From a virus: DNA of 26,490 nt. The stretch is from positions 1 through 26,490 of IMG/VR virus record IMGVR_UViG_3300031621_000027; one strand, given 5' to 3'. The notes below the pieces were generated by a model. The model did not search any database. It worked only from the letters and a program-made list of their open reading frames with translations, and was not told the origin of the DNA. A program made the position numbers and the translations under genes. Below, piece after piece: positions 1-26,490 of the stretch (positions are counted from its first letter, which is position 1; each line of letters begins with the position of its first letter).

Positions 1-440
1 CGGAGTAACCGTGCTAGTCGGAGTAATCGTACTAGTCGGAGTAATCGTCTGAGTTGGAGTAATCGTACTAGTCGGAGTAATCGTCTGGGTCGGAGTAATC
101 GTCTGGGTCGGAGTAATCGTCTGGGTCGGAGTAATCGTCTGAGTCGGAGTAATCGTCTGGGTCGGAGTAATCGTCTGAGTCGGAGTAATCGTCTGAGTCG
201 GAGTAATCGTCTGAGTCGGAGTAATCGTCTGGGTCGGAGTAATCGTCTGAGTCGGAGTAATCGTCTGAGTCGGAGTGATCGTCTGAGTCGGAGTAATCGT
301 ACTAGTCGGAGTGATCGTGCTTGTCGGAGTGATTGTCTGAGTTGGAGTAATCGTACTTGTCGGAGTGGCCGTCTGAGTCGGAGTAACCGTCTGAGTTGGA
401 GTAATCGTACTGGTTGGAGTGACTGTGCTGGTCGGGGTAA
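1..440. repeat. 18-bp tandem repeat array encoding PTQTIT / PTSTIT
   Basis: About 23 degenerate copies of an 18-bp unit of the type ggagtaatcgtctgagtc. Read on the minus strand each encodes six residues (Pro-Thr-Gln/Ser-Thr-Ile/Val-Thr). Many copies are identical, so the array is recent or homogenised and its assembled length may be unreliable. It starts at the window edge and may continue beyond it. Confidence 0.95.
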
Positions 441-1800
441 TTGTGCTGCTGGGCGTTGCCGTTGGACTTATGCAAACATCTTCATCATTATCGACAATTA
501 AAACATTATATGGATTTTTGTACAATATTCGCTCATCAACACAAGGCAAATTTGTCATTCCGTATAATGTAATTTTGAAAAACTCCGACTCTTCATGGAT
601 CGTATCCTCTAGAGTATTGACATGAATTATTTTCATATCTTCACCGTCATTGAAATTTAAAGTGCCAGCGCGGCCAACAAAGTCTAACCCCGACACTGCA
701 GATAAGGATTGGGTTTCAATTTTATAATTTACCGAGAATGGTCCATTATAATTTAATTCACCAATAGCGGGCTCCCTGTAAACCCTAACTCCAGTAGGCT
801 GACCTTCTGTTACGTAGGTCGAATAATACTGGAACCTAATGTTTAAATTTAAAGTATTACAGGTTGGTGTTGGGGTAGTTGTTAATGTTGGAGTAATCGT
901 GCTGGTTGGAGTGATCGTACTGGTCGGAGTGATCGTCTGAGTCGGAGTTGCTGTCTGAGTCGGAGTAATCGTCTGAGTCGGAGTAATCGTCTGAGTTGGA
1001 GTAATCGTACTAGTCGGAGTAATCGTCTGAGTTGGAGTAATCGTCTGAGTTGGAGTAATCGTACTAGTCGGAGTAATCGTCTGAGTTGGAGTAATCGTCT
1101 GAGTTGGAGTAATCGTCTGAGTCGGAGTAATCGTCTGAGTTGGAGTAATCGTCTGAGTCGGAGTAATCGTCTGAGTCGGAGTAATCGTCTGAGTCGGAGT
1201 AATCGTCTGAGTCGGAGTGATCGTCTGAGTTGGAGTAGTTGTTATGGTTGGGGTGACCGTCTGAGTTGAAGTTATCGTGCTGGTCGGAGTAATCGTACTA
1301 GTCGGAGTAATCGTACTAGTCGGAGTAATCGTACTTGTCGGAGTTGTTGTCGGAGTTGTTGTCGGAGTTGTTGTCGGAGTTGTTGTCTGAGTTGCTGTCT
1401 GAGTTGGAGTGGCAGTATTAGAAGGGGTTATTGTGGGGGTCGCCGTAGGTGTGACGCTGTTTGTAGGTGTAGGAGTTGGAGTTAATACTAAAATATCTAA
1501 AACCCCACACTTAGCTTTTCTGTTTGAATTTAAATTCTCAACAAAAACAAAAGCCTTATAGTTTCCCAAATTTGCATAAGAATGATTTAATTTAATGCTA
1601 TAACCTAGATCATGATCCCAAAGTAGTTCTTGGTCACGCATAACATTACCGTCCCCGAAATTCACGCTGTAACGTAAACTTCTATCTACATTAATTTTAT
1701 CCTGAACCTGAAGTATTAAATCAAAAGGATTGCTTCCATACTCAACCCTTGAACCAAAATTAACACAGCAGTCGCCCGATATTGGTGTTGGGGTAATCAT
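1..1800 (-). CDS. PKD / Calx-beta virion display protein with Thr/Pro stalks (partial, C-terminus off the left edge)
   Basis: The frame is open from the ATG at 1798-1800 down to base 1, giving 600 codons with no stop, so the C-terminus lies outside the window. Residues about 1-100 look like a PKD fold: YSVNFGDG is followed by a late NHSY-x4[11 protein letters not shown] strand. Residues about 103-305 are a Thr/Pro stalk made of six-residue PTQTIT-like units. Residues about 306-445 resemble a Calx-beta domain ([34 protein letters not shown]). A second stalk runs from there to the edge. The Calx-beta part is clearly paralogous to the end of the gene just upstream (shared RFQY-x-STY-x2-EGQ and NPY-x-V-x-IVD). 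The ATG lies 2 nt after that gene's stop, with no good ribosome-binding site, so translational coupling is likely. Role inferred: an extended surface protein of the virion, perhaps binding host or particulate glycans. The family assignment rests on motifs only. Confidence 0.8.
884..1480. repeat. Second 18-bp tandem repeat array in the same gene
   Basis: Roughly 30 units of the same 18-bp family as the array at the left edge, separated from it by the Calx-beta segment. Near 1339-1385 the unit shortens to 12 bp (four copies of ggagttgttgtc, encoding PTTT). Both arrays are in frame in one gene, so recombination between them could delete the domain that separates them. Confidence 0.93.
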
Positions 1801-1802
1801 TC

Positions 1803-3935
1803 TTATGAAGGATCAACTATGAATACGGAATATGGATTTACCGCGTAAATTTGAGCGCGAGCCGTAAGACTTCTGGGATTATATAGCTCTAAGTAGAAAA
1901 ATTCGTCGTTTTCTCTGGGGGTTTTAATTGCAGGTATTGGCAGTCCAGTCACGGAAATCTCTTTAAACATTTCTCCTTGTGCGAACGATAAAGTTCCCGA
2001 CCCAGAAATATAATCGTAATGACCAAAAGGAAAACCTATGCCTGATCCAGATGCACTATTATTAGCATTTTTACTCGTGTAGTCTACAGAGAACGATTCA
2101 TAAGAATTATGACTTACGGCTGTATCTCTATAAACCTTTACTGCGGCTGTCTGCCCTTCAATTAAATAAGTGGAAGAATACTGAAACCTTACAAATTGAC
2201 TATTTAGAGGGCTCACTGAAGGAGTTATCGTCACTGTTGGAGTTATTGTTGGAGTTATTGTGCTCGTTGGAGTTATTGTGCTCGTTGGAGTTACTGTTAA
2301 GCTTGGAGTTATTGTTTGGGTTGGAGTCGGTGTTGTGCTATGGGTGGGAGTAATTGTAGGGGTTGGAGTTGGGCTTTTAAATGGAGTTGTAGTAACCGAC
2401 ACGCTCGGAGTTAAGGTCGGAGTGATCGTTTGAGTTGGAGTGACTGTTTGGGTCGAGGTTACTGTCTGGGTAGGAGTAACTGTCTGAGTCGGAGTTATTG
2501 TTTGAGTAGGGGCGACGGTATAGCTAGGGGTAATCGTGCTAGTTGGTGTAATCGTCTGAGTTGGAGTTGCCGTCTGGGTGGGAGTGACCGTGTTGGTTGG
2601 AGTTATAGTTGAAGTGACGGTTATCGTTGGAGTTAAAGTTGGAGTGACGCTTGGAGTAGGAGTGGGGCTTAAGGCTATAATTGGCGGAGGAAATGCTAAA
2701 TGGTCAGGGTCAGATGAAGACGGGTCTCCTGCTGGAGGAAATGGGTTATTAGCCTGAGGGGCTGATGAAGAGTTCAAGCATCCTCCGCTGATTAAAAATC
2801 CATTTTTTCGAGTTAATGTGAAATCAAAACTTAAATCTACAGAAGCTATATCATTAACCTGCATACTTGTATTCTGAGCTTTTAGAACGGCATTGTCTAC
2901 AACATAAGTCATTAATGTATGCCTACTCTGATTTTCGTTTGCGCAGAAATGTGATGCGGGTGGGCAGTTAGACTGACAATCAATAGTTATCTTATAAGGT
3001 TTATCTTTTTTTAAAATTTGATTTAAATTACCATCATTTATTTCTCTTTTTATTATATTAAAATTTAATGAACCTCTTGCTGGTAAATTCATTTTTCTGT
3101 CATATGGATACATAGACCCCATTCCATATAAGTTTCGTCTACTCATATCGATATTTAAATCAAAACTTGTAGCATTAGCGTTAGTTGTTGACACCGCTAC
3201 TCCTCCAACATTTAATTCTTCTAATTTTAATTTTAAATAATTAGGAAGTAATGCTGGATAATCATATTCATTAGCTAAATCTTCTCCACCGAAACCATAA
3301 GTATGTCTCTCTTTGTAAGTGCCGTCGTACAAATGTATTGCTGGTATATAATTATTACCAGAATATGTATCTACTTTTATATTAGAGGCTTGATAACCAA
3401 CAGAGGCTCTCACTGGAGAGTTAATGTTTGCTGACAGGGAATAATTATTAGCGAAAGCATTGCCTATTCCCACTACATAATGACCACTAAAGTCTGAGTC
3501 ATTCAATAAATAATTTGCCTGCTTATTAACATCACTCCTAAGAACTAAAAAGAAATTCTTGTCGCCAAAATGCCTTGATATAAAACTGTTTTCGGCTATT
3601 CCCCCAGAAGGTACCACATTAAAATTTAACAAATATTCATTAAGACCACATGTTGGCAGATATTCAAACTGAAAGTTAACAGGTACGGGTTCAATGTTTA
3701 CATCAATGTTAGAGCCCGGTAGCGGATCGGCAGAAATGATATTAATAGTTCTAGTTAATAAGTCTTCATGTCCAATTTGTTTAATTTCCTCTCTGTTTAT
3801 GTCAAAACCATAAGACACAGATTGAACCTTAGTTATTTTTCTCAACAAAGAAGCATTACCCAATTGATGTGGCCTAAATGCTGGCGATGGTCCAACGAAC
3901 AATGCAGCATAATCCGATCTAAAGAAACTCCTCAT
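1803..3935 (-). CDS. Tail-tube-like protein fused to a Thr/Pro stalk and a Calx-beta domain
   Basis: A 710-aa protein in three parts. Residues 1-415 are paralogous to the 536-aa protein just upstream. Both begin with a [RQ]S[DE]-x-ALFV[GS]P-like motif. Both have a KVQS-x2-Y-x-F-x-INR-x3-x2-GH segment and a Gly-Asn-x5-YSL strand, and both have a DxxCx2-3C-like cysteine group late in the domain (CQSNC here). Residues about 416-577 are a stalk of PTQTIT-like units. Residues about 580-710 resemble a Calx-beta domain ([33 protein letters not shown]). No better start exists than the ATG at 3935, since it preserves the paralogous N-terminus; AAAGG sits unusually close to it. Inferred role: a minor or decorated tail-tube subunit carrying an exposed stalk and adhesin-like domain. 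It could instead be a separate tail spike that reuses the tube fold. Confidence 0.85.
2208..2680. repeat. Degenerate Thr/Pro-coding repeat array
   Basis: Units of 18 bp (six residues, PTxTxT) and shorter ones, more diverged than the arrays in the neighbouring gene. Read on the minus strand they encode the stalk between the tube-like and Calx-beta domains. The divergence suggests this array is older or less often homogenised. Confidence 0.85.
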
Positions 3936-3948
3936 ACCTTTGTAAACA

Positions 3949-3980
3949 ATTACACCACAACCCTAAGATTGTGGTGCAAT
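3949..3980 (-). terminator. 12-bp hairpin between the two tail-tube paralogues (attenuator or partial terminator)
   Basis: ATTACACCACAA (3949-3960) and TTGTGGTGCAAT (3969-3980) form a 12-bp stem with an 8-nt loop. The single mismatch becomes a G-U pair only in the minus-strand transcript, which suits the direction of the flanking genes. The bases after the stem on that strand (TTGTTTACA) are not a convincing U-tract. Partial attenuation, or stabilisation of the mRNA 3' end, seems more likely than full termination. The stem ends 13 nt before the next ATG. Confidence 0.5.
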
Positions 3981-4007
3981 ATAATAAAATTAAAATTAAT
4001 TAATTAC

Positions 4008-4023
4008 ATTTATTTAAATAAAT
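4008..4023. repeat. 16-bp AT-only palindrome downstream of the tail-tube gene
   Basis: ATTTATTTAAATAAAT is a perfect palindrome a few bases past the stop codon of the upstream minus-strand gene. In a region this AT-rich it could be chance. Alternatively it could add to mRNA 3'-end structure together with the nearby hairpin. Confidence 0.3.
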
Positions 4024-4029
4024 TTTATA

Positions 4030-5640
4030 TTAGTTAGTTCTCTCGGACAACTCTCTAGAGAATCCGTCTTGAACTTCAAGCCCTGCAGCATATCCTACAC
4101 CAGTGGTGCCGAGATGTCCATACTTATAGTATTTTAATCCATCTCCAGTATTTTCTACTGTAGGAAAGGATTTATAAAGTCCGTCATGACCTGTTTGATT
4201 TTCAAAGCCGCTCATAAATACGCCAACCCCTTTTTCTTCAGGTCCGCCTATTTGCGTAGAGAAAGTTAGATCCACACTCTTATTGTCTCCAATAGCAGAA
4301 CTAAAGCTTTCCGAGTCAAGCACTGCTTGCTTAAAGTCGATTACGACTGCATCAGGATTACTATTTGGATCACAAACTACACATGCTGGATTTTTCATTC
4401 TGACTTGTAGGTCGTATTTTCCTCCGCAGATAAGGTCAACTAAGTTTCCTTCTTTTAAGTCTGCCACTAAAGCATTCACACTAAGTGTGCAGGTAATTGG
4501 AAAATCAACTTCTTTTGCATAAGCATAAGTATTACCAAGCCTTTGGAGTGAAGTTCTACCCATTGGTGTTGACAATGTAAAGCTTTGAATGTGAGCACTA
4601 CCCTTATCTTCTGGACCGTACCCAAAAGCTTTACCAGAAAGCTGTTTTGCAATCAATCCAGCATCCCTAAGATCAATATTAATATCGCCCGGCTTTAAAA
4701 CACTCTCTCCCTGACCTGTCTCAGCAGGAGGTAAAAAGAAACATCTGTCACAAATCAAAGTGCCGTCTTGAGGCTCAATTGCTGGAATGTCTTTAAAGTT
4801 TGTGCCAATGTCTGATTTTATATTTAAGCCTTCTACAGAAATGGATGCTGTTGGAAATGACCCAACACTACCTTCTAGAGAGTAGTCGGTTACATAACCA
4901 TTACCCAAACTGATTGTTGTTTTGTCTTGCTCCGAGACCATTTGATCTCCGATAGTCACATCTCTTCCTTCTGGAACTGTTTCTATGAAAAAGTTATTTC
5001 CGAATTCATTTTGAGACCTAGTCATCATTCCTGATAAACTCTGAAACGAGCCATCAGTAACCATGCCTAGTAATCTTTCATTTTCTAGATCTGTTAAGTA
5101 ATAAGAGAAGTCCATACTTACTGTTGGGGCCTCTAAAACTACGGAGTCTAGTCTTCCTAAATGCCCAAACTGATTGACGTCTTGTCTATTTATAGTAAAG
5201 CTATAATTTGCACTTTGAACTCTCTTTAATTGTTCAACAGTAGTTCCCCATGCTCCATCTTGAAATTTATTTGAGCTTGCATTTAAATATTGTAAAGCTG
5301 AACCGCTTAAATGAGATTTTCCTGAAAATCCAGCTGCAAGTAAAACTGGATGCACTCCAGACATATCTAATGGGTCCGAACTGCCATAAAATCCTGTACA
5401 TTTAAAAGTTCTGAACTTAAAGTCCTCGAGCGGATTAATTCCTCCAACACCTTTGCAAGCATTGAATGTAATGGCTGTTTGATTATGCCCACTACCCGAA
5501 ACCATACAGTCAGGTAATCCCGCCGCGTTGGCTACACTCTTCGGTGGCATGTAGTATATATGGTGGCCTGTTGTATCAGGCGATACAAAAAGGGCTTCAC
5601 TTTGGTAGATAACTCTATTTCTTGCTGGTAAATTACTCAT
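4030..5640 (-). CDS. Putative major tail tube protein (536 aa)
   Basis: No family is certain by eye, but several clues point to a tail-tube-type protein. It lies after connector-like genes and before stalked tail proteins. It has a diverged paralogue next door, and two smaller relatives lie directly after the tape measure. Shared elements include VQSANYSFTINR followed by GH, a Gly-Asn-Gly-Tyr-x3-YSL strand followed by a FPTASISVEG segment, and a late GRTSLQRLGNTYAY stretch matching [13 protein letters not shown] in the paralogue. At 536 aa it is much longer than the usual 150-250 aa tube subunit. Two CxxC pairs (CDRC and CVVC) could bind a metal or form disulfides. The start ATG has no Shine-Dalgarno sequence but an A/T-rich leader. 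A 61-nt gap precedes it with no confident promoter. Being a major virion protein is inference. Confidence 0.85.
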   Translation of the reverse strand: MSNLPARNRVIYQSEALFVSPDTTGHHIYYMPPKSVANAAGLPDCMVSGSGHNQTAITFNACKGVGGINPLEDFKFRTFKCTGFYGSSDPLDMSGVHPVLLAAGFSGKSHLSGSALQYLNASSNKFQDGAWGTTVEQLKRVQSANYSFTINRQDVNQFGHLGRLDSVVLEAPTVSMDFSYYLTDLENERLLGMVTDGSFQSLSGMMTRSQNEFGNNFFIETVPEGRDVTIGDQMVSEQDKTTISLGNGYVTDYSLEGSVGSFPTASISVEGLNIKSDIGTNFKDIPAIEPQDGTLICDRCFFLPPAETGQGESVLKPGDINIDLRDAGLIAKQLSGKAFGYGPEDKGSAHIQSFTLSTPMGRTSLQRLGNTYAYAKEVDFPITCTLSVNALVADLKEGNLVDLICGGKYDLQVRMKNPACVVCDPNSNPDAVVIDFKQAVLDSESFSSAIGDNKSVDLTFSTQIGGPEEKGVGVFMSGFENQTGHDGLYKSFPTVENTGDGLKYYKYGHLGTTGVGYAAGLEVQDGFSRELSERTN

Positions 5641-5701
5641 TTTATTATTAAATATATGGCGGTTTTAATTAAATACACACAAAATAAAAAGTTGTGAAAA
5701 A

Positions 5702-7486
5702 TTAATGCCACCTACCGGAGAATAATAAGTCAAAATTCCCGTTAATTGCATTGGTAGTTTTCGCTGTTGTATCGCCATCTACTCGAAGTTCTATATAAAA
5801 ATGAATTTTACCATCAGGCTGATTGGCTTTATTGATCTTTGCAGATCTTGCCGCACCCTGACAAGTGAGGCTTCCTGCACAATCAAGTAGTCCAAAGTCG
5901 TATATTCCATATGCAGTATTAGCAGCATAGAAAGCAAGAGGTAATTCTGATGTGTCTGTACTTACAGGGATACTTGTGCCTCCGATACTTACCTCTGCCC
6001 ATTGACTGTAGGTGGTGGAAGAAGATGCTGCTAGACCTCCAAAGGTGGGGCCGCTAAGTGAATTTGGACTTAATTGACTTACTCCTCCTGACGGAATGAC
6101 TGCTGAAGCATCTATACTAAATTCAGTAGCTCCCACAGGCCAAGTCATTGGAAACGAAACACCTCCAGCAGATAAAGTTGTAGAGTTTGCATGCTCATTA
6201 CTATCATCTCCATCCAGTGTGATAATTTGAGCAAATTCGGCAAAGGCTTGGCTGGGAGTGCTTGGGCTAACAGTAGCGGTTGGAGTAACTGTAATACTCG
6301 GAGTTGTGGTCGATGTAATTGTTGGGGTAACTGTATTAGTTGGAGTAACTGTAATACTCGGAGTTGTAGTTGATGTAATTGTTGGAGTAACTGTAATACT
6401 CGGAGTTGTGGTGGTTGAAATTGTTGGGGTAACCGTAATGCTCGGAGTAGTAGTCGATGTAATTGTTGGGGTAACTGTATTGGTTGGAGTGACCGTATTA
6501 GTTGGAGTAACTGTAATGCTCGGAGTCGTAGTTGATGTAATTGTTGGGGTAACTGTAATACTCGGAGTTGTGGTGGTTGAAATTGTTGGGGTAACCGTAA
6601 TGCTCGGAGTAGTAGTCGATGTAATTGTTGGGGTAACTGTATTGGTTGGAGTAACCGTATTAGTTGGAGTAACTGTAATACTCGGAGTTGTAGTCGATGT
6701 AATTGTTGGGGTAACTGTAATGCTCGGAGTCGTAGTTGATGTAATTGTTGGAGTAACCGTATTAGTTGGAGTAATCGTAATGCTCGGAGTTGTAGTCGAT
6801 GTAATTGTTGGAGTAACCGTATTAGTTGGAGTAACTGTAATGCTCGGAGTCGTAGTCGATGTAATTGTTGGGGTAATCGTAATGCTCGGAGTCGTAGTTG
6901 ATGTAATTGTTGGAGTTACCGTATTAGTTGGAGTAATCGTAATACTCGGAGTTGTAGTCGATGTAATTGTTGGAGTTACCGTATTGGTTGGAGTAACTCC
7001 AACGCTCGAAGTAACTGTAAGACTCGGAGTTGTAGTTGACGTAACTGTTGGAGTGGGATTAACATTACCGTTTGTAGGTGTCACTGTGCTAGTCGGAGTT
7101 ACTGTGCTGGTCGAAGTGACGGTTGGCGAGGGAACAATACTAGTCTTAGTAACGGTCGGAGTAACGGTCGGAGTAACGGCTGGAGTGCTGGACGGTAATG
7201 GAGGACACGCGAAAATAATTCCCGTCAAGTTTGGGCCGATACAGTCAATTTCTCCTTCGTTATTAGAGGCTGTAACTTTATAGTTGTAAGTGACACCGCA
7301 GTCAGGAACTAAATCCAATCCAGTAATACTAATAGGGTTTCCTGTTACTCCCGCAGCTATTGAGTTTACATAATAAAAACCGCCAGTAGTACCTTGAGAC
7401 ACATTTTGCCTATACAGCTTATATTCGTCGGCCAGATATGGGCTTTCGTTGCGATGCAGAAAACTATAATATACTTTGTAGGACAT
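5702..7486 (-). CDS. FN3-like virion protein with a long Thr/Pro/Ser stalk and a C-terminal head domain
   Basis: A 594-aa protein. Residues 1-93 look like a fibronectin type III fold, with a YKLYRQN strand, ISITGLDLVPDCG and YNYKVTASNNEGE. Residues about 100-410 are a low-complexity stalk built from two unit types, PTNTVT (6 aa) and PTITSTTTPSITVT (14 aa). Residues about 411-594 form a separate domain without repeats, containing two cysteines (CAGSLTC) and ending FDLLFSGRWH. I do not recognise this domain. FN3-like and Ig-like modules are common on phage tail proteins and are thought to bind weakly to surface carbohydrates. The layout (anchor, stalk, head) suits a fibre-like appendage. Which end attaches to the virion is unknown. 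The gene lies in the leftward tail operon, 26 nt after the 452-aa gene. Confidence 0.85.
   Translation of the reverse strand: MSYKVYYSFLHRNESPYLADEYKLYRQNVSQGTTGGFYYVNSIAAGVTGNPISITGLDLVPDCGVTYNYKVTASNNEGEIDCIGPNLTGIIFACPPLPSSTPAVTPTVTPTVTKTSIVPSPTVTSTSTVTPTSTVTPTNGNVNPTPTVTSTTTPSLTVTSSVGVTPTNTVTPTITSTTTPSITITPTNTVTPTITSTTTPSITITPTITSTTTPSITVTPTNTVTPTITSTTTPSITITPTNTVTPTITSTTTPSITVTPTITSTTTPSITVTPTNTVTPTNTVTPTITSTTTPSITVTPTISTTTTPSITVTPTITSTTTPSITVTPTNTVTPTNTVTPTITSTTTPSITVTPTISTTTTPSITVTPTITSTTTPSITVTPTNTVTPTITSTTTPSITVTPTATVSPSTPSQAFAEFAQIITLDGDDSNEHANSTTLSAGGVSFPMTWPVGATEFSIDASAVIPSGGVSQLSPNSLSGPTFGGLAASSSTTYSQWAEVSIGGTSIPVSTDTSELPLAFYAANTAYGIYDFGLLDCAGSLTCQGAARSAKINKANQPDGKIHFYIELRVDGDTTAKTTNAINGNFDLLFSGRWH
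6258..7200. repeat. Composite tandem repeat (18-bp and 42-bp units) encoding the stalk
   Basis: Two units alternate: an 18-bp unit (PTNTVT) and a 42-bp unit (PTITSTTTPSITVT). Often they join as a 60-bp higher-order repeat. Longer blocks also recur nearly identically, for example around 6375-6530 and 6555-6680, which implies block duplication and not only single-unit slippage. The reverse strand carries a long open frame here that is a by-product of the repeat composition. Confidence 0.93.
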
Positions 7487-12181: not shown

Positions 12182-15100
12182 ATGTCATTAAATGTAAGAA
12201 CAGAACAGGTTGGTCTCGAAGAGTCCATACAGAGTGTAGTCAGGCGAATTAATCGCAGGGGGCTCAGTGTAAAAATTAAATCTTCTGATTTCACTCAGCC
12301 TTTAGGCCGAATAACGCAAAAAGCTAACGAATTCACAAAATCTCTTGAAGCTTCTAATGCTCGAGTTATAGCTTTTGGAGCTTCTGCCGCAATTATCGGG
12401 GGGGTTACTCGAGGCTTTACCGAACTGGTGGGTCAGGCTATAAAGGTTGAAAAAGTTTTGACTGACATTAATGTTGTCTTAGGAACTACCGCTGCAAACT
12501 TATCTAAGTTTGGGGATAGCCTATTTAAGGTTGCGAGAAATACATCTCAAAGTCTAGAGGCTGCAGCCGAAGCCGCTCTGGAGTTTTCTCGTCAAGGTTT
12601 ATCTATGGAGGAAACTTTAAGAAGGACTAACGATGCTCTCATTTTAACTAGATTGACTGGATTAAAAGCCGCTGACTCCGTAAAAGGTTTAACTGCGGCG
12701 GTTAATGGTTTTGCTGATGCAGGACTCAATACTACACAAATTATTAATAAATTAGCAGCAGTAGATGTAAAGTTTGCTGTCGGAGCTGACGACTTGATTA
12801 ATGCTCTAGCTCGAGCAGGCGCGGTAGCTCAAGATGCTGGAGTGAACTTCGATCAGTTAGTGGGAGCTGTAACTTCCGCTCAACAAATTACGGCTCGAGG
12901 GGGAGCTGTTATTGGTAATAGTTTTAAAACAATTTTTACCAGAATACAGAGGGGTAGCACTTTAGATGCCTTAGAGGAGATGGGAATAGCAGTGAGAGAT
13001 ATTAGAGGTAACACTATGCCCGCACTAACAGTCCTTAAAAACCTATCAGATTCCTATAATGATTTAGGAGCCTCAACAAAAGCTGCCGTCGCAGAGCAGG
13101 TTGGTGGAGTTTTTCAAATAAATGTATTAAAAGCTGCATTAAAAGACTTAAATAAAGAAAATTCTTTATACTCTCAAGCTACAAGAATATCAAGCCAAGC
13201 TACAGATCAAGCTCAAAGAAAAAACGAACAACTACAAAAAACAATTTCCGCACTAGCCGCCCAAACAAGCCTAACCCTCCAAGAGCTTGCCTCAAATATT
13301 GGCGACTTAACTTTAGCCCCAGGCATATCACAGATACTAGAGGCTGTAAATTCTTTTGGTGAAGGTTTAAATAACCTATTTGGCAAAAACTCAGAAGGGC
13401 TTGGGGCAGATTTCGCTAAAGGCATAATGAGGGGCCTAGGTAGCGTGTTGGCGGGCCCTGGTGTGGTTTTGGCATTCGGTGTATTTGCAAAACTATTCAG
13501 TAATGCTTTAAAGTTTGCCAAATCCTCATTAAAAGATATACTTGGAATTGTTACAGCTAAAGATAGAGAGCGCGGAATACAAGAGTCTATCGTTATGGCT
13601 ATGTCTCAAAATAAGCAGTTAGCTATTGAGTTAAATAAATACTCTGGCGACAAAACTAAACAAGAGCAAATTATGCTTGGAGTGATAAAAGAGCAGACTC
13701 ATTTTTTAAGACAGCAGCAAAAAATCGCCGCCACTATAGCCCCTGGTTTAGCTAGAGCGGGAGTAAATCAAAGTCTAACTATGGGGAAAAACAGCCGTAG
13801 CAATGCTGAAGGCTTCATTCCCAACTTCTCTTCTAGCTCAGTGACGCCTTACGAAAAAGCAAAAGAAGAAAGTATGGCTGCGAAGGCTGGATACAGGTCA
13901 GGGCAAGTTAAGAAAATGAACATGCTTGGACTTGGCGAGGTAATTTATAACACTAATGAGTCAGTAAAAACGTTCTCAGGAATGAAACAGCCCGCTATTA
14001 TTCCACCTAAAGATAGTAGAGCTGGATCCAAGTATGGCTCTAAATTTATGAATAAGCATGGATTTGACCCCTACTCCCCAGCCGCTTCCGAATCGGAGGG
14101 TAGCTCAAATAACTCAACTTACCATAAAGGCTTTGTGCCTAATTTCGCTTTACCCGCTAGGCAAACAGGCACTATGCTCAATTTACCTAAAGCCAAAATG
14201 TTTGTGCAGCATCCTCGTGATCGTGGCTGGAAAAAAATGGAGTCTCCGCTAGATAATGTTGCTGCGAAGGCTGCTAGGTTAAAACCCATGATATCAGAAT
14301 TAGAAAAGCTTGGAATTACCGCTCTATCTCGAAGTTTTTACTTTGCAAATCAAGACGCATCAGGTAGAACTAGCGGAGCTAGAAAAGTCTCTGACTTGGG
14401 TCGAGGTTTTTCGAACGATGTAGTTGGCTCAGTTTATGAAGAAGGCTTATATAATAACAAAAAAAGCGGATTAAAAGGTAAAGGGTTTATTCGGACAAGT
14501 AACGATTCCTACAAAATTAAAGGGAAAACTGCTACCAAAAAATCAGGCAGTGGAGATGGTCAAGGTGTGGTTGACTTTGTTAGACCTGGCCGGCTACCTA
14601 TAGAAGCCAAACATGGGTATTCTCCAGCCAACTTATTAGCGAAAAGTATTTTTCAAGCTTCAGACAGATCAATTGAAAACTTCCTAAAAACTAAAAATAT
14701 TAATTCCAGCTCTTTCAGAAAAACGAAAGAAGAGAGAGCGTTAAGAACCGCAAATTCACTAAGAGGATTCAAGGGGTCAACCATTGCAGATGCTGAAAAC
14801 TTAGGCTTATACGGAGGGTTTGTTCCAAATTTTGCTGACGATAAAGTTCAACCTGTTAAATCTATATCTAAGATTATTGACGGAGATAGTATAGAAGCTG
14901 ATGTTTTAGTTGGCACTCAAAGAGTTGACCACAGATTACATGGAGTAGATGCAGTAGAAAAAGATCAAGCATATGGAACTAGAGCTACAAGTATAGCTAA
15001 AAACTTTTATAACAATAAAAAGGGAAAAACAAGACTTAGAGATTTTAGAGTTCAAGACGGAAAAGCTGCTTACGGAAGAGGGCTTTTTAAGGATCAAGAA

Positions 15101-18100
15101 TTAGCTAGATCTTTAGTTGAAAAAGGGTATGGAGTTCCTGATGCTGGATACTTAAATAAAGGAGATTACTTTAAGCACCAAAAAATCGCTGAGACAGCTA
15201 AAAGTAAGGGTGTTGGCATATGGAGAGACAAAACTCCAAAAGGGAGATACAAACATCCTAAAGCAAAATTTTACTTACACCAGCAAGGCGTAGTTCAAAA
15301 AACTGACCAATGGAAGGACGTTACTGTTGGCAGCACCAGATTTAAAGGCAGAGGTAATACTAATTTATCGAATAAAAAACATAAAGGTTATGCTGATGGT
15401 GGTAATAAGTTCAGCTATTCTGGACTTATTCCTAATTTTGCTGACTTTAGAACTCGTGGACAAAAGATCCAAGCTGTTTTATCTGACCCCGCAAACAAAG
15501 GCATTAAGTTTAACAACAAACTAAACAATACAAAAACATTTAAGACCCAAGCTAGAGGCGGCATGTTTCACTCAATGTATGTGGAGAGCTATTTAAAGAC
15601 CGGAAATCAATCCGACTTGAATTATTTAGTCAAAGCCGGCTACAACAAACAAGAGTTGATATCTTTACGTCGTCACAAAAAAAGCGGAGGCAGGGTAAAT
15701 GTGCGCGGCAAAGGCTTCGTTCCGAACTTTTTAAAAACACAGGAATTTAGCCGAACTAGTAGAGGTGCATCTCAGTTTAATTCAACTAATGGCCTTGATT
15801 TACAAACCGCCCTATCAGGGGGTAAGGGTTTCAGGCTCTCTAAATTTAACTTCGATAAAGTTAGACAGTTTCTAAACAGCTCTCAATTCAGACAACTCCC
15901 TGAAAACATTCAGACCCAATTATTAAATAAATTAAAAATCCAATCTAAATTTGTTAAAATGGGCGATGTAACTAGACCTTACTTAAAAGGTAAAACATCT
16001 TTTCCTGGTAGAATTGCAGCGTCTTCCGGATTTATACCTAACTTTTCATCACCCCTTGAGGATGCCATATCAAGAGAAAAAGCTGCGGGAATACCCAAGT
16101 CAATGATGAAAATTGAAAGTGATCCCTCTTTGGTTATGCCTGAGAACCCTCTAGGTCTGGGGGTAACGAATACAAGAGACGAGCCTGCTGGTATCAAGCA
16201 AGGAATCAATAGAGCTATAAGTATGGGTATTGACCCAAAAACCCACGGCAGTTCAAATAATTCCACATATGCTTCAGGCATAATTCCGAATTTTGCTCAA
16301 ACACTTGGCCCCGCAACCAATGACTCCAGAGAAAGGGCTGGGTTGGATAAAAGGGCTGCTGCTGCAACGAAAGAGGCTACAGAAGCAACATCAGATCTTA
16401 CGGGTAGACTTTTCGCAATAACCTCTTTGACCTACATGCTTGAGGGAGCTTTTTCAGACATGGAAGGTCAAGCTGGAAGCGCCACAAAAGGTTTTATAGG
16501 TTTGGTCAAGGGAATTAGCCAAGGAGCTCTCGTTTTTGAAGCTCTTGGTCCAATTTCCAAAGGATTCGAAGGGGGTCTGACGAAATTGAGCGATAAGCTC
16601 TCAAGCTCAGGCGGCAAAATTGGAAAAGGCTTCGGAGGCTTAGTCGGAAAAGTTGCCGGAGCTGCGAAAGCTCTACCCTTCCTCGGTGCGGCGGTTGCTG
16701 GCATTATGCCAATATTTGATGCACTTAAACAAAACACTGATTGGTTTGACTCAGGTTTAGATGCTCTAAGGAAGTCTGCCGAAAAAACATCAAAAACAAT
16801 TGATGCCTTAGGGACTGCGATAACTAGTGCTGAAAGTGTCGAGTCAAGCAAAAAAGAACTAACAGAGCTCAACAACTCAGCCATGGCTGGAACCTTCGAA
16901 GGTGAAATGAAAAGATTGAAGTTAAACCAGCAATTAGTAAAAGAGCAGTCCAACCTTGCGGCTCAATCCGGAAAATTAGCCAGTCAATTAGATCTCACTG
17001 AATCAGAAATTAAAGAAATGACATCAGGAACAGCTGCAGGAATGATGAAATTGCAAAAAGCAATGCTTCAGGCTGGACAATCAATAGCTATGAATACAGC
17101 AGTATCCAGCCTAATTACGGCAACTGAAGGCAATGGTGATTGGGTTGGCGATGATGGAAAAGACCCGCTTCAAGCTAGCATTGAAAAAACGAATATTGCA
17201 AACATGGTAGCTACCTCCACTAACGACAAGGATATAGACTCTGAATTTCAATCATTGCTAAACACCTTAAGCGGAGTTGAAAAAGAAATGAAGGAAAGAG
17301 TAGGGCCTAAAGGAACGGGAGGTCAACAATCGGGCCTCAGTATAAGGATAGCAAAGAGGCGATTCGCAGAAAATGACGACTTAAGTCCAATACTTAAAAT
17401 GCAAGTTCAGGCTGCCTTAAAAGGCAAACTTTCTATCGAAAAACTTAAAAAGCACTTCGAAGATCAAAGGAAAATCGTAAAAGAATTAAATAACAACGAA
17501 GAAGAAAAGTTAAAAATAGGCGAAGGAGAACTTGAGTACGGAAGAGAGACAAAAAAACTAAAACAATCTATTGCGAACTCTCTTGCAATGCGACTCAAGC
17601 AAGCTAAGTTTGATTTACAATTTTCAAAAAAAGAACAATCAATGACTGCCGACTCTGTTGCTTTTAGGGTTAAATATAATGAATCTTTAGGAAAGTTAAC
17701 TGGAGCTCAAAAAGTTCAAGAAGCTATGACCGCAAAGGAACTTAAGCTCCAACAAGACTTTGCAAATACTCAACAAGAAATAACAGACAAATACTCAGCC
17801 GAAGGAAATAAATTCATATCCAGTCTATTTAAAAAACCTACAGGAGTAATAGCTCCAAAACTCAGGCAGTCCACAGGTGTAGAAGGTGAGGAAGACGAAA
17901 AGGTTTTTAGTAAAAGCAAGGAACAATTAAGAGTTAAACTAAAGAAGACTTCTAATTCTGAAGCTCTCCATGATCTACCAGAAGTTCAAAAATCCTTAAG
18001 AGAATTCATGACAAAGCTTCCAAAAATAGAAAGTGGACCTAGAATTGAAGCTGAATTTGAAAAATTCTTAACAGGCATCCAAGACTTAAATGTCCAAGAA

Positions 18101-21563: not shown

Positions 21564-22729
21564 CTTTCTTACCATATGAAGATGTACCCTTATATCTTGC
21601 CGTCAATGGTCATACGGGGGAATATATATTCGCCGAAAGTGCTCAGTTATCCGTCAGTCAAGCTCTAAGTGCTAACAGGCATATGGATGACCAAGTATTG
21701 CAGATCTGCGAATACGGACTTGGTGCCTCAATGAATTATGCACCAATTAATTTCGCTGCTAATGTCGACTTTCCTGTTGTATTAGGGCCAATAGATGGCC
21801 CACCTAAACCTCTAGCTACATCAATAAACAAAATACCTTCAGGAACAAAAATAACTTTTCCAAATGAGAAGCATTTGTTTTTTTCTAATGACGTGTTCCC
21901 GAATGGTCAAGAATACATAGTCTCTCTAAAAGCCCACAGTGGTGGATGGAATTTATCTTCAGATGAATCTCAAAGCGGTTACTTTGAGCCCATATTCGAC
22001 TACTCAACCCAAGCTCCAGTTGAAGGTTCTCTTTCTGTTAATTTTTATGTCAATACCGGAAACCTAAATAGCTTTTTCAACATTACAGGGCTATCAAATC
22101 CATCCCAGTATCCCCCGATTGATGAAGAGAAAATTACTGGCCACCTAGGAGACTTTAGATTCTCTGACGCTTATTTAACTGACTTCAACTTCTCTCTATC
22201 TCCCAATTCTATTTCTCAAGCATCAGCCTCTTTTAAGGTTTATGGGGAGCTGATTCATGATTCATCCGCAACCACAGCTTATTTCTCTTCCTCACTATAT
22301 CAACAGCAATCAGTACCTCACGGCAAGTATAGTCAAATCTTAGGATCCCAAGACGCTGGCATGAATCATCCTATATCATTTAGCTATGCAATATCTGTCG
22401 ACAGGAAGCCTAGATATTCAACTCCCACTGGATCCAGCTTTGAAAGTCAGGGTTTAGTTCCGGATAGAGTCTCTAAATCTTCCACAAAAATTACAATGTC
22501 CATGCAGGGAGAAAATTTAGATCCTAACATATTAATCAATGGCTTTGACGGAAAGAGGGCAAATCTTACAGCGGTAGTCAAAGATTTATCTTATGCAGGC
22601 TTTGAGGATAACTCTAACGGAACTTTACATACTTTTAATTGCAGCGGAGTGATAGACTCTCAATCTTTGTCTGTAGGTTCAGCGGGATACCTAAACGGCT
22701 CCGTATCAGTAAGTCAACTTTTAAGATAA
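21560..22729 (+). CDS. Second tail-tube-like / distal-tail protein (389 aa)
   Basis: ATGA-coupled to the preceding gene and joined to the next by TAATG. It shares the tube-like pattern: a GDFRFSDAYLTDFNFSLS strand, then SQASASFKVYGEL, and a second half with FSYAISVDRKPRYSTP, then a serine-rich stretch and KITMSMQGENLD. The C-terminus adds a further beta segment (GTLHTFNCSGVIDSQSLS). It is longer than its neighbour by an N-terminal 150 residues that contain ILGPIDGP-type loops I do not recognise. No signal peptide. Probable role: distal-tail or tail-tip ring, from position and paralogy. Confidence 0.85.
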   Translation: MTFLPYEDVPLYLAVNGHTGEYIFAESAQLSVSQALSANRHMDDQVLQICEYGLGASMNYAPINFAANVDFPVVLGPIDGPPKPLATSINKIPSGTKITFPNEKHLFFSNDVFPNGQEYIVSLKAHSGGWNLSSDESQSGYFEPIFDYSTQAPVEGSLSVNFYVNTGNLNSFFNITGLSNPSQYPPIDEEKITGHLGDFRFSDAYLTDFNFSLSPNSISQASASFKVYGELIHDSSATTAYFSSSLYQQQSVPHGKYSQILGSQDAGMNHPISFSYAISVDRKPRYSTPTGSSFESQGLVPDRVSKSSTKITMSMQGENLDPNILINGFDGKRANLTAVVKDLSYAGFEDNSNGTLHTFNCSGVIDSQSLSVGSAGYLNGSVSVSQLLR

Positions 22730-23859
22730 TGGACATCAAAAACACGAACTCTTTTGGAATAAACTTATCTCCATCCTTCGGAGCTTCCGCTTCTTTTTCC
22801 TCCGTTTCTGAATATGTTAATTACGGAGATAGTCATAGCCAGAGAATGCTAAAAGGTATAAACGGTTTGTCAATGTCTTTAGATTTGAGCTTCAATGAAC
22901 TAACTGATCCTGAATCTCAAGACCTAGTGAGCTTTCTGCAGAGCCAATTCCACTATCAAGAGCAAGCTTACTCTAATGATGGAAGCTTTAGCAATAAACG
23001 ACTAATTCCCTTTGCATACCAACCATTTTTTCCGTACAAAGAAAATCAATTTAATTGCTTAGAGTTCTCACATGATCAATCTTACTTTAATATTAACAAT
23101 ATATCAGCCAAGCTTGTAGCTATTGCCCCAAGCATACTTAATAGCATTGAGTCTGCAGTGGATCATAACCCAATTATTGACGGCACAATCAATGCCACAA
23201 TTAATGCAAACTCTTCCGTGTCTAACAACGGAGTACTTTTGCCATCCAACTCGTTTATCTACCAATCGGGCAATTACTCTCATGCAAAGATCACTTCTGA
23301 CTTTAATGTAACTAATGGCAATACCTCAGTCTTGTCTGCTGACGCTCCATTTAGGTTCAATGCTGGCAATGTATCGTGCAACCAAACAGCTATCAGGAAT
23401 TCAATTTATATCAACAACCCAAATGACTGCTCTTATTATCCATATGCTCCTATTGTGGCTGGAGGAAATTTAAGTTGTAGAATGTTTGACTTTAGGCCTA
23501 GCATTTCAGTTTCATTACAAAACTCCCCTAAGTACAAACAGAGCACAGCTTCTGATATTTATAAGAAATTTAATAAATATGGATTCAATCCTAATTTAAA
23601 TAATTTAAGATTGAGCTTTAAGGGTAGATCCGACCAAGAAGCTAAGCGAATTCTATTATTTCTTGAAAGTCATTTAGGATACAAAAAATTTGGATTCCAC
23701 CTTTCCAAAGATTATGTCGGGTCTAATTCAGATATAATAAATACATCCCCACACAGAAAAGGTATGTCATTTTTTTACTGCCCTGAATGGCAACATACAT
23801 TTACCTATAAAGATAATCATAATATATCTGCCTCTTTCGTGGAATGTATTGATTATTAA
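22729..23859 (+). CDS. M: Minor tail protein, gpM-like, with the M domain duplicated (376 aa)
   Basis: I place the start at the ATG at 22729, overlapping the preceding stop by one base (TAATG). The frame extends 30 codons further upstream but only inside the previous gene. Residues about 20-125 match the lambda gpM pattern: VNYGDSHSQRMLKGINGLS against the familiar V-x-FGDGYSQR-x3-GLN of gpM, followed by a FL-x-S helix. Residues about 285-376 repeat it: LSFKGRSDQEAKRILLFLES, then FYCPEWQHTFTYKDNHNISASF, like the C-terminal CxxW segment of gpM. Lambda gpM is a single domain of about 109 aa, so this is roughly three times that size with a middle insertion (residues about 130-280). It works in the tail tip between distal-tail protein and gpL. 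Confidence 0.8.
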   Translation: MDIKNTNSFGINLSPSFGASASFSSVSEYVNYGDSHSQRMLKGINGLSMSLDLSFNELTDPESQDLVSFLQSQFHYQEQAYSNDGSFSNKRLIPFAYQPFFPYKENQFNCLEFSHDQSYFNINNISAKLVAIAPSILNSIESAVDHNPIIDGTINATINANSSVSNNGVLLPSNSFIYQSGNYSHAKITSDFNVTNGNTSVLSADAPFRFNAGNVSCNQTAIRNSIYINNPNDCSYYPYAPIVAGGNLSCRMFDFRPSISVSLQNSPKYKQSTASDIYKKFNKYGFNPNLNNLRLSFKGRSDQEAKRILLFLESHLGYKKFGFHLSKDYVGSNSDIINTSPHRKGMSFFYCPEWQHTFTYKDNHNISASFVECIDY

Positions 23860-23872
23860 TTTATAATATATC

Positions 23873-24742
23873 ATGGAGAAATCTATACATAATGAAATAA
23901 TGGAGCTTGAGCCTTCGACCGTGGTTATTTTATACGAGTTGGTTCTCAAGGGTCATGCAGCAAGTTATTATTTTCATTCTGGGGAAAACGGCTACACTAA
24001 TGAGATCGTCTTTCAAGGTAATAATTATTACTACATACCAATTAAAACGGATGGTTTTGATTTTACTGATTCAAAGCTACCTCGACCTACATTGACAGTA
24101 GATAATACTGATTCTTTTTTCAGCTTGAAAACTAGATTCTTCAAAGACTTCATTGGTTTTACTTTTAAAAGAACCAGAACTTTTGTTAAGTTTCTAGCTG
24201 ATGTGAACTTCCCGAGTAATGTGAACCCTTTTGGAACGCCTACAGAAGTTTCATTTCCAGTAGAGCAGTATGTAATCAATAAAAAGAATGCAGAGAATCA
24301 AAACTTAATTCAATTCGAACTAGTATCTCCTCTAGAAAAAGAGTCGGCATTCATTCCAAATAGAAAAATAGTATACAATACATGTCAATGGAAATATCGC
24401 AGTAATATAGGTTGCGGATATAATGGGCTACCTGTCACTGATATCAAGGGCAATTTTATAAACTTCACTCCAGCTGGCCCAACCCAAACCTTTGATCCAT
24501 CCACAACTTATAATTCAGGAAATTACGTTATGCTCGACTCGCCGCCAAACTCTTCTGACCCAGATAGAGTTTATGTGTGTGTTCAAAATGGCACTCTAGG
24601 GAAAAATCCAGCCACAGACAAGTCTTCTTGGATTGCGGACGATTGCCCTAAAAACATTTCTGGATGCCGATGCCGCTTTCAGGGAGTAGAAAGCACGAAT
24701 GGATTACCTTTTGGAGGATTTCCTGGGACTTGGGAATACTAA
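23873..24742 (+). CDS. L: Minor tail protein L, Fe-S cluster type, with an inserted carbohydrate-binding-like segment (289 aa)
   Basis: Aligns along its length with lambda gpL: VVILYEL near residue 17, VFQGNNYYYIPIKTDGFDF, RPTLTVDN, the FLADVNF strand and the final FGGFPG. The four cysteines that hold the [4Fe-4S] cluster in gpL are kept: C171 and C181 (CQWKYRSNIGC), C258 and C265 (CPKNISGC), with an extra C267. In lambda the two pairs are about 22 residues apart; here the gap is 76, because a segment is inserted (FDPSTTYNSGNYVMLD and on to VCVQNGTLGKN, then SSWI). It looks like a CBM5/12-type chitin-binding fold. Function: tail-tip assembly and host contact. The start ATG has no Shine-Dalgarno; M10 is an alternative start. 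Confidence 0.88.
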   Translation: MEKSIHNEIMELEPSTVVILYELVLKGHAASYYFHSGENGYTNEIVFQGNNYYYIPIKTDGFDFTDSKLPRPTLTVDNTDSFFSLKTRFFKDFIGFTFKRTRTFVKFLADVNFPSNVNPFGTPTEVSFPVEQYVINKKNAENQNLIQFELVSPLEKESAFIPNRKIVYNTCQWKYRSNIGCGYNGLPVTDIKGNFINFTPAGPTQTFDPSTTYNSGNYVMLDSPPNSSDPDRVYVCVQNGTLGKNPATDKSSWIADDCPKNISGCRCRFQGVESTNGLPFGGFPGTWEY

Positions 24743-25445
24743 ACCTATAAAAGAATGCTTTCGGTATTCTCTTGTAGATAATAAGTTCGAGAAATTTGGA
24801 ATATTTAAATTCTTAAATCACCAGTACGACTATGAGTTTAAACCATTCAAAAACTTAAACACCAAGAATAAGGAAGTGTTTGCGATTGATAATTCTGATT
24901 TTTATTCAGATTATTTTAGTGGCGATATTATTTCCATATTCCACACCCACACAACCGATAGCTCTGAATTAAGCTCTATAGATGTAGAAATATCTGAATC
25001 GCTAGGGCTTCCTTCTTATGTTATATCATCTGTGTCAAAATCTCAAAACATATACTACCCCAAAAGTTACAAACCAAGAGGTCTTTATGGGCGTGTATTT
25101 ATTCCTTTCTTTCAAGACTGTATTTCTTTCGTAAAAGACTTCTATCAACTACATCTTAATATAACCTTTAATGGTATATCTAACTGGGCAAGAGAAAAAC
25201 AAAATTCTAATTTAAAATTAATTAATCAAATTAAGAATTATTTTAATGAAATTGATATTAAAAATATAACTTATGGTGATTTAATTGTATTCAAGCCATC
25301 TATTAGCCCCTTTATGCATCTTGCCGTATTCAATAAAGACAATAGATACTCTCACCACCCAATGGGCTTAGTTCCCAAGGATGAATTATTTACTGAAGAA
25401 TCACTTAATAAAGTGTATAAAGTATATAGGTATAAGGATTTATGA
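24699..25445 (+). CDS. K: Tail tip protein K: JAMM (MPN) metalloprotease plus NlpC/P60 peptidase (248 aa)
   Basis: The N-terminal domain carries the JAMM zinc motif H82-x-H84-x7-S92-x2-D95 with the upstream catalytic E19. The C-terminal NlpC/P60 domain has C141 (FQDCISFVKDFY), H207 (FMHLAVF) and a final H220 (YSHHP), with GDLIVF before the first His. This is the lambda gpK architecture, and gpK is a tail-tip peptidase thought to cut the peptidoglycan or process tip proteins. It overlaps the end of gpL by 44 nt; the ATG at 24699 puts the JAMM glutamate at residue 19, matching gpK. It is followed by an ATGA junction to the gpI-like gene. Both active sites look intact. Confidence 0.9.
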   Translation: MDYLLEDFLGLGNTKPIKECFRYSLVDNKFEKFGIFKFLNHQYDYEFKPFKNLNTKNKEVFAIDNSDFYSDYFSGDIISIFHTHTTDSSELSSIDVEISESLGLPSYVISSVSKSQNIYYPKSYKPRGLYGRVFIPFFQDCISFVKDFYQLHLNITFNGISNWAREKQNSNLKLINQIKNYFNEIDIKNITYGDLIVFKPSISPFMHLAVFNKDNRYSHHPMGLVPKDELFTEESLNKVYKVYRYKDL

Positions 25446-26490
25446 AAAGATTTATTTTGCATGGGGAAATGGCTTCGAATTTTTGTCAAGAAATTGATCT
25501 TGATGTAAAGACAATTCGAGAAGCTATTAACGGGCTATCATCTAACTTCCCCAACTTTAGGAAATTCTTTATAAATAAATCGCTCAAAGGAGTACAGTAT
25601 TTATTCGTTGACGAGAATAAAAACACGATGGAGCAATACTGCTTAGATATACCTTTGGTGGAAAATTCATACAATATAGTTCCATCGATGGAAGGCTCCG
25701 CATTGGCTGCTCCCTTTGTAGGTAATTTCGCCTTGGGTTATTTAATGCAGAAATTCATGAACGACATGTCTCCAGAAGACGACGGAACTCCAGAGTACGA
25801 AATTATAAAAACCAATTCTTTTATATATAGCAATAATGAAAATAGGGTCGAGCAAGGCACTCCAGTTCCGGTAATATACGGTCAGCTTAGGGTTGGCTCA
25901 AAAGTTATACATTCTAGCATTCATAACTATGATTATGACTATGATAAAGCTGAAATTTTTGCTGGAAATCCAACGCCAACAAGAATATCTAAAATGGCTG
26001 CGGATTATACTTTTATAAATTCAAAAGAAATAGTTGACTACCGAAGTGAATCTTCTGGCGAAGCTTTTAGCAACTACAAAGACTCAAGACAAGACCCATC
26101 AAAAAGAAACAGTATCGAGGTTGGCGGTAACGGTGAAAAAAATCACAGTTTACTAGGAGAAAATGAACCCATCAATGCTGGTTATGTAAATGATGGATCA
26201 AGTTCTAACGAACATGTTCAATTTGGACCCTCAGAAAACAAAGCGGTTTATGCTTCGGCTAATGCCTCTTGGTGGGACTTTCCCCAATATAACACTCAGC
26301 CCAGACCTTTCGTCTACCCTAAACTTGGCAGTATTGACCAAGACATGCGTCCGAAATCAAGCGACGATCTTTCGGTAGAACTTCTATCGAAAGACGGAAT
26401 GGCTCCAAGCGCAGCTCAAAAAACTCTAGCTTGGCGTAACGCAGGCTCTCCGATGAAAGTTGGCTCGCGCGGAGATTATCAAAAATTGGA
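25442..26490 (+). CDS. I: Tail assembly protein I-like, extended (partial, right edge)
   Basis: Starts with an ATGA overlap on gpK and is open to the end of the window (349 codons plus two bases). The N-terminus MKRFILHGEMASNFCQEIDL, followed by IREAINGLSSNFPNFRKFF, matches the ubiquitin-like start of lambda gpI. A hydrophobic stretch at residues about 84-100 (SALAAPFVGNFALGYLMQ) is followed by VEQGTPVPVIYGQLRVGSKV, the conserved Gly-x-PVPVxYG-x5-VGS-x-VI segment of gpI and of the start of gpJ-type tip proteins. Beyond that it does not stop as gpI would, but continues for over 180 more residues. So it could be an I-J fusion or an enlarged gpI whose C-terminus lies outside. Role: tail-tip assembly beside L and K, and possibly the host receptor-binding hub. 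Confidence 0.82.
   Translation, partial: MKRFILHGEMASNFCQEIDLDVKTIREAINGLSSNFPNFRKFFINKSLKGVQYLFVDENKNTMEQYCLDIPLVENSYNIVPSMEGSALAAPFVGNFALGYLMQKFMNDMSPEDDGTPEYEIIKTNSFIYSNNENRVEQGTPVPVIYGQLRVGSKVIHSSIHNYDYDYDKAEIFAGNPTPTRISKMAADYTFINSKEIVDYRSESSGEAFSNYKDSRQDPSKRNSIEVGGNGEKNHSLLGENEPINAGYVNDGSSSNEHVQFGPSENKAVYASANASWWDFPQYNTQPRPFVYPKLGSIDQDMRPKSSDDLSVELLSKDGMAPSAAQKTLAWRNAGSPMKVGSRGDYQKL

Follow-up and report, generated by a model that had tools for sequence, protein, structure and literature searches.

The tape measure protein encoded on a 26,490-base virus record (IMG/VR record IMGVR_UViG_3300031621_000027, hereafter the window) and its relatives in the same phage family probably also serve as cargo carriers, as their sequences suggest. 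The open reading frame (ORF) in question has the marks of a phage tail tape measure, namely a PF10145 domain, a large size and tail-tip genes nearby, and matches the PHROG tape measure profile (E 2.6e-44). Seven exact matches to the peptide G[FLI][VI]PNF lie in it, at residues 544, 650, 879, 1081, 1178, 1283 and 1366, where a preliminary description had placed them; no other place in the window contains the motif in any frame, and none of 2000 composition shuffles (0/2000) yields it. Since the seven copies differ in their synonymous codons, the motif is a protein-level repeat and not copied DNA. The same description held that the motif divides an array of cargo modules. The division stands, but seven motifs give six segments, the outer two of which are conserved bracket domains and not cargo, and the window array therefore has four cargo modules. 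The order is N-core, first bracket, segment 2, a Staphylococcal-type nuclease (SNase), segment 4, segment 5, last bracket and C-core (Table 1). With one motif more than there are segments, the array carries the motif at its outer borders with both cores.

Table 1. Coordinates of the tape measure, its motif copies and segments, and the tail-tip genes in the window
Feature	Position	Strand	Basis
Tape measure protein, array carrier, 2856 aa	12182..20752	+	PF10145, PHROG, downstream tail-tip genes
PF10145 PhageMin_Tail, residues 118-309, within N-core (residues 1-543)	12533..13108	+	E 3.1e-23
Segment 1, first bracket, GYxxGxVKxMNxxGxGxVxYNxxExVKxFxGMxQPAIxPPxxSxAG...HGFDPY	13811..14128	+	alignment A11; 76/80 relatives
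Segment 2, putative cargo, PD-(D/E)xK-like; E104, D149, E159-x-K161 (tape measure residues 753, 798, 808, 810)	14129..14815	+	alignment A5, 24 sequences
Segment 3, putative cargo, SNase	14816..15421	+	PF00565; alignment A6; thermonuclease structures
Segment 4, putative cargo, shared with nine further non-redundant segments whose position varies among relatives	15422..15712	+	cluster 3
Segment 5, putative cargo; homologous to the C-terminal part of the L002 SNase module	15713..16027	+	segment clustering
Segment 6, last bracket, AIxRExxAGxPxSxIRV...NPxGLxVxNTRDEPxGxxQGIxRAxxMGIDPKxHG	16028..16276	+	alignment A10; 73/80 relatives
Motif copy 1, GFIPNF	13811..13828	+	exact pattern match
Motif copy 2, GFVPNF	14129..14146	+	exact pattern match
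Motif copy 3, GFVPNF	14816..14833	+	exact pattern match
Motif copy 4, GLIPNF	15422..15439	+	exact pattern match
Motif copy 5, GFVPNF	15713..15730	+	exact pattern match
Motif copy 6, GFIPNF	16028..16045	+	exact pattern match
Motif copy 7, GIIPNF, junction to C-core	16277..16294	+	exact pattern match
M-, L- and K-like minor tail proteins and I-like tail assembly protein (lambda-like tail tip, noncontractile-tail context)	22639..26488	+	PHROG 14, 18, 30, 32

Relatives were collected by scanning viral contigs with the N-core; a second scan gave at least 544 matches, from which 80 non-redundant tape measures were kept, their loci being labelled with L-numbers (L002, L006, L045 and so on). The N-core is 42-75% identical among them. 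Most of the 80 hold 3-12 motif copies; the motif is thus repeated in relatives, and the refuting result named in the preliminary description, a single copy per protein, is not what they show. Among 776 ORFs in these loci, none besides the tape measures has a stricter form of the motif. A homology-free DNA scan with the back-translation of GFIPNFA returned at least 120 stretches; among the matches listed, 103 of 113 motif ORFs have at least two copies and 102 of 113 match the N-core or bracket profiles. Since the ORFs reached through the motif nearly all match these profiles, the motif is a signature of a large tape-measure family of uncultured phages. In a logo of 374 unique contexts, where the search pattern dictated the G, P and N positions and limited the residue after Asn to F, Y or L, the unconstrained flanks are conserved (A-[SA]-x upstream, [AS] downstream), and every synonymous codon occurs. 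The spacing between copies is uneven, from 8 to >1000 residues. Among 50,697 records of phage isolates, nothing was found for the first bracket, the SNase segment, segment 2 or the module of cluster 4, the last bracket had one match that we judged to be chance (E 0.2), and the N-core had distant relatives only. The N-core is distantly related to SPbeta YomI (26-31% identity). Host assignment through genome contigs led only to mixed bins of metagenome-assembled genomes.

The architecture of the family follows a constant order: N-core, first bracket, variable cargo, last bracket, C-core. Cutting the relatives' tape measures at the motif produced 354 segments, 245 of them non-redundant, which fall into 27 multi-member families and 56 singletons. 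One group of segments of about 80 aa occupies the first or the last position, with one exception; the first bracket profile is found in 76 and the last in 73 of the 80 non-redundant tape measures. We considered the two brackets as paralogues and rejected this, as their alignment covers the motif half only. The arrays are basic, with a net charge of +5.3 per 100 aa, versus +1.4 and +1.2 for the cores. Four loci (L011, L012, L058 and L061) form a sister branch with one cargo each and reduced borders (VPNF, APNFSPxGDA and NLPNF). They were rejected as motif-free negatives, as they keep reduced motif cores and a single swapped cargo; L011 and L012 differ in cargo, with N-cores 94% identical, and the cargo of L012, L058 and L061 displays, by eye, an E..D..E-x-K pattern.

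The modules are bounded by the motif, and they are exchanged, deleted, duplicated and moved between phages. Phages whose N-cores are 88-99.7% identical differ by entire modules (L006/L007, L036/L038/L041/L042, L045/L046, L039/L040, L070/L072 and L077/L082): one module is replaced between the motif at residue 1317 and that at 1665/1595 in L006/L007, L036 differs from L038 by one 152-aa module and from L041 by two modules, and a module common to L041 and L042 sits at different places. In 23 of 27 cases, against 11% expected, the ends of these breaks lie, for both partners, within -4 to +12 residues of a motif, and in 19 of 23 when the tandem-duplicate ends of L006/L007 are left out; some of the phage pairs depend on one another. 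Because the alignments continue through the conserved motif, these ends do not prove crossing-over inside it. The window SNase is 79% identical to that of L045, versus 56% for the cores, and only 43-51% identical to the SNases of phages whose cores are 74-79% identical; likewise, the cluster-4 module of L016 and L054 shows 77% identity against 54% for the core. Such values point to horizontal transfer of modules between distant lineages, and with the motif-bounded swaps they establish that the modules are exchangeable and not conserved with the rest of the tape measure, as had been anticipated. Modules shared between phages mostly have a ratio of nonsynonymous to synonymous substitution rates (dN/dS) below 0.3 (purifying selection, 0-0.3). 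Module family A9 (L036/L041/L042, tape measure residues ~866-1233) evolves fast, with dN/dS of 0.67-0.89 next to several neighbours at 0.02-0.16, and this rapid change hints at an arms race. In both L006 and L007, residues 656-824 and 825-993 are a whole-module tandem duplication, from motif to motif, with 98.8% identity.

Segment 3 is a solidly predicted SNase with its catalytic residues kept: it matches PF00565 (E 2.9e-5, 24.9 bits with a cut-off of 21), its profile matches solved thermonucleases (E 1e-8), and D24, R40, D45, E48 and R88 are invariant in the four sequences of alignment A6. These we take to be the equivalents of the catalytic residues D21, R35, D40, E43 and R87. In segment 2, D and E-x-K are invariant and E is nearly so in the 24 aligned sequences. 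Its AlphaFold2 (AF2) model is an alpha/beta fold with a predicted local distance difference test score (pLDDT) of 90.6, in which residues 1-6, the motif, are the sole stretch below 50. E104 lies in a helix and strands end at E159-x-K161 before a further helix, an arrangement compatible with the PD-(D/E)xK core order. The modules tested, the SNase and segment 2, are thus not ordinary coiled coil. Segments 4 and 5 could be assigned no function, and among the segment profiles compared with solved structures the SNase alone matched.

Modules of the relatives match GNAT, polynucleotide kinase, phosphoheptose isomerase and endonuclease families. Further families in the same place of the array have the pattern G-x-x-F-E ... 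D ... (D/E)-x-K, and at least one of three E..D..(D/E)xK profiles is found in 59 of the 80 tape measures. The PD-(D/E)xK-like families A7 and A8 are related by hhalign (E 2e-11), and A5 matches A7 through the motif only. A GNAT acetyltransferase signature, RGKGYGRKLYEYM, lies in L024 at tape measure residues ~800-920, between the variants GHIPNF and GYVPNF. In an ADP-ribosyltransferase (ART)-like family of the R-S-E class, seen in relatives only, the LYRG, SxSTS...A..FA and E-x-E residues are present, and an ADP-ribosyltransferase module is weakly possible. Scans of 132 modules with Pfam, PHROG and NCBIfam found no polyvalent signature domains (the metallopeptidase MPTase and others), the models of Iyer et al. 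not being among the profiles used, and defence-system profiles gave SNase-type and marginal matches only.

Several points weigh against the tape measure being a cargo carrier. Two nuclease signatures at least had been claimed for the array; the SNase holds, and the second, in segment 2, has conserved residues (E, D and E-x-K) as the sole basis for a PD-(D/E)xK-like assignment, as its model found no fold match by Foldseek against PDB and BFVD or by VIA-align and its sequence no match among solved nucleases. Most modules are without a detectable family. The AF2 model of the ART-like family, built from 8 sequences, is too poor for use (pLDDT 43.9), and its hhalign match to T4 ModA/ModB is weak (E 0.05, ~1% probability). 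Finally, that folded cargo would fit the narrow tail lumen is no more than plausible.

Tape measures occupy the lumen of the tail tube and exit through the tail ahead of the DNA during infection. Because they leave the lumen before the DNA, we infer that cargo carried within them enters the host and acts early. Between the conserved N- and C-cores, the two brackets frame one to ~10 folded enzyme or other modules, each beginning with a G[FLY][IV]PN[FY] peptide. The modules, which are basic on average and many of which are nuclease-like, would enter the cell together with the genome or ahead of it, and could act at once, for example on host DNA, rival DNA or defence components. In its fullest form, to which we give a little less than an even chance, the tape measure would be a reloadable magazine, in which a separator peptide and brackets slot enzymes into place for delivery ahead of the genome and release, and in which cassettes spread by recombination at the separator.

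The motif itself may, with less confidence than the entry of the cargo, be a recognised peptide, that is a processing or docking site, since it is near-invariant while the sequence on both sides varies freely, and since every border, the two core junctions among them, carries it and the AF2 model shows it disordered. It had also been described as a hinge. The disordered linker in one good model agrees with this, but near-invariance implies more than a passive hinge. On present evidence processing and docking are equally likely, and neither reaches an even chance. If the motif were a protease processing site, the tape measure would be cut at each copy after assembly or on entry and the modules freed. 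The presence of the motif at both outer core borders in the window, its disorder in the model and its conserved flanks all suit this possibility. The K-like tail-tip gene at 24699-25445 has a canonical, intact JAMM metalloprotease motif (HTHTTDSSELSSID), which makes its product one possible protease for such cuts. Against processing, no dedicated protease of the family came to light, we know of no cleavage site that looks like the motif, and a cut before assembly would split the ruler in two. A precedent in favour is the polyvalent protein DdrB of P1, which undergoes proteolytic processing ahead of its packaging (PMC5512222). A docking or packing peptide, for its part, would bind to the wall of the tail tube, to a chaperone or to the coil of the tape measure, and would pin the cargo in a way that lets it fit into the lumen and leaves length measurement undisturbed. 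For such a peptide, which may equally be what the motif is, speak its aromatic, near-invariant character, its invariable position at the start of a module, the brackets that flank nearly every array, and cargo lengths that differ by hundreds of residues among near-identical phages with unchanged cores; no partner is known, however, and the uneven spacing of the copies fits docking poorly.

It is unlikely that the nuclease-like modules amount to selfish, homing-type elements sitting in frame within a gene that tolerates them, any host function being incidental. Many modules are indeed nuclease-like and mobile between phages, but GNAT and other non-nuclease modules have the same borders, the brackets are ordered, the modules are under purifying selection, and intein splice residues are absent. 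Inteins were rejected separately: Asn followed by Cys, Ser or Thr was not seen, as the motif Asn precedes Phe or Tyr in almost all of the 374 contexts, within a pattern that allowed F, Y and L only. It is very improbable that this is an ordinary tape measure whose inserts act on peptidoglycan or are purely structural: single peptidoglycan hydrolase domains that aid entry by degrading the wall are well known in tape measures (TM4, PMC1796659; SPbeta YomI) and are likewise enzyme domains within the ruler, but no hydrolase family (SLT, M23, NlpC, lysozyme) was found in the tape measure of the window or among the 132 modules scanned, the SNase catalytic residues are intact, and whole modules are exchanged.

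Polyvalent proteins and MuF toxins are the nearest systems in logic, though they are not tape measures. Polyvalent proteins combine 2-15 diverse domains in one phage or plasmid polypeptide, which has been inferred to accompany the DNA into the host (PMC5512222, Iyer et al. 2017). The arrays described here share with them several diverse catalytic domains in one polypeptide; they differ in having a tape measure as carrier, with a repeated separator peptide and two brackets. That paper mentions tape measures 0 times, and its phage examples include head-packaged proteins. The MuF polymorphic toxins of temperate phages likewise join a phage structural carrier to an exchangeable enzyme domain (PMC5576092). 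The MuF carrier belongs to the head and bears a single toxin at its C terminus, accompanied by an immunity gene, whereas the cargo here is internal, multiple and in a tail protein. More generally, the comparison with polymorphic toxins made in the preliminary description is apt in logic, given a conserved carrier, exchangeable enzyme domains and a conserved junction, but polymorphic toxins have a single C-terminal toxin in place of an internal array of several modules, and no candidate immunity gene turned up, no systematic search having been made. Sle1 (PMC13277306) and Tme (PMC11126660) are effectors derived from tape measures and packaged in tail-like particles, and their functional domains vary between species; they belong to bacterial contractile systems and have one C-terminal domain with no repeated motif reported, in contrast to the internal array and lambda-like tail tips seen here. 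T4 Alt and other internal proteins are also injected enzymes that act early (PMC9503650), but they are separate head proteins and not a tail cargo array. In the open-access literature, with preprints outside the coverage, we came across no description of a phage tape measure with an internal enzyme array divided by a motif, and nothing relevant on the motif strings; the array looks like a previously undescribed way of loading and delivering phage proteins.

Elsewhere in the window, positions 1-7486 hold, on the minus strand, three large ORFs with long Thr-Pro-rich repeats, one of which runs off the window end; they are possibly fibre or adhesin linkers.

The cargo-carrying tape measure would add the tail ruler to the head-based routes by which phages deliver proteins (T4 Alt, N4 RNA polymerase, MuF and polyvalent proteins), and its cassette grammar would make candidate effectors findable in metagenomes through one peptide motif. 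If true, the family would supply dozens of early-infection proteins and a natural scaffold for protein delivery in noncontractile tails, and would allow a test of how far length measurement tolerates folded cargo.

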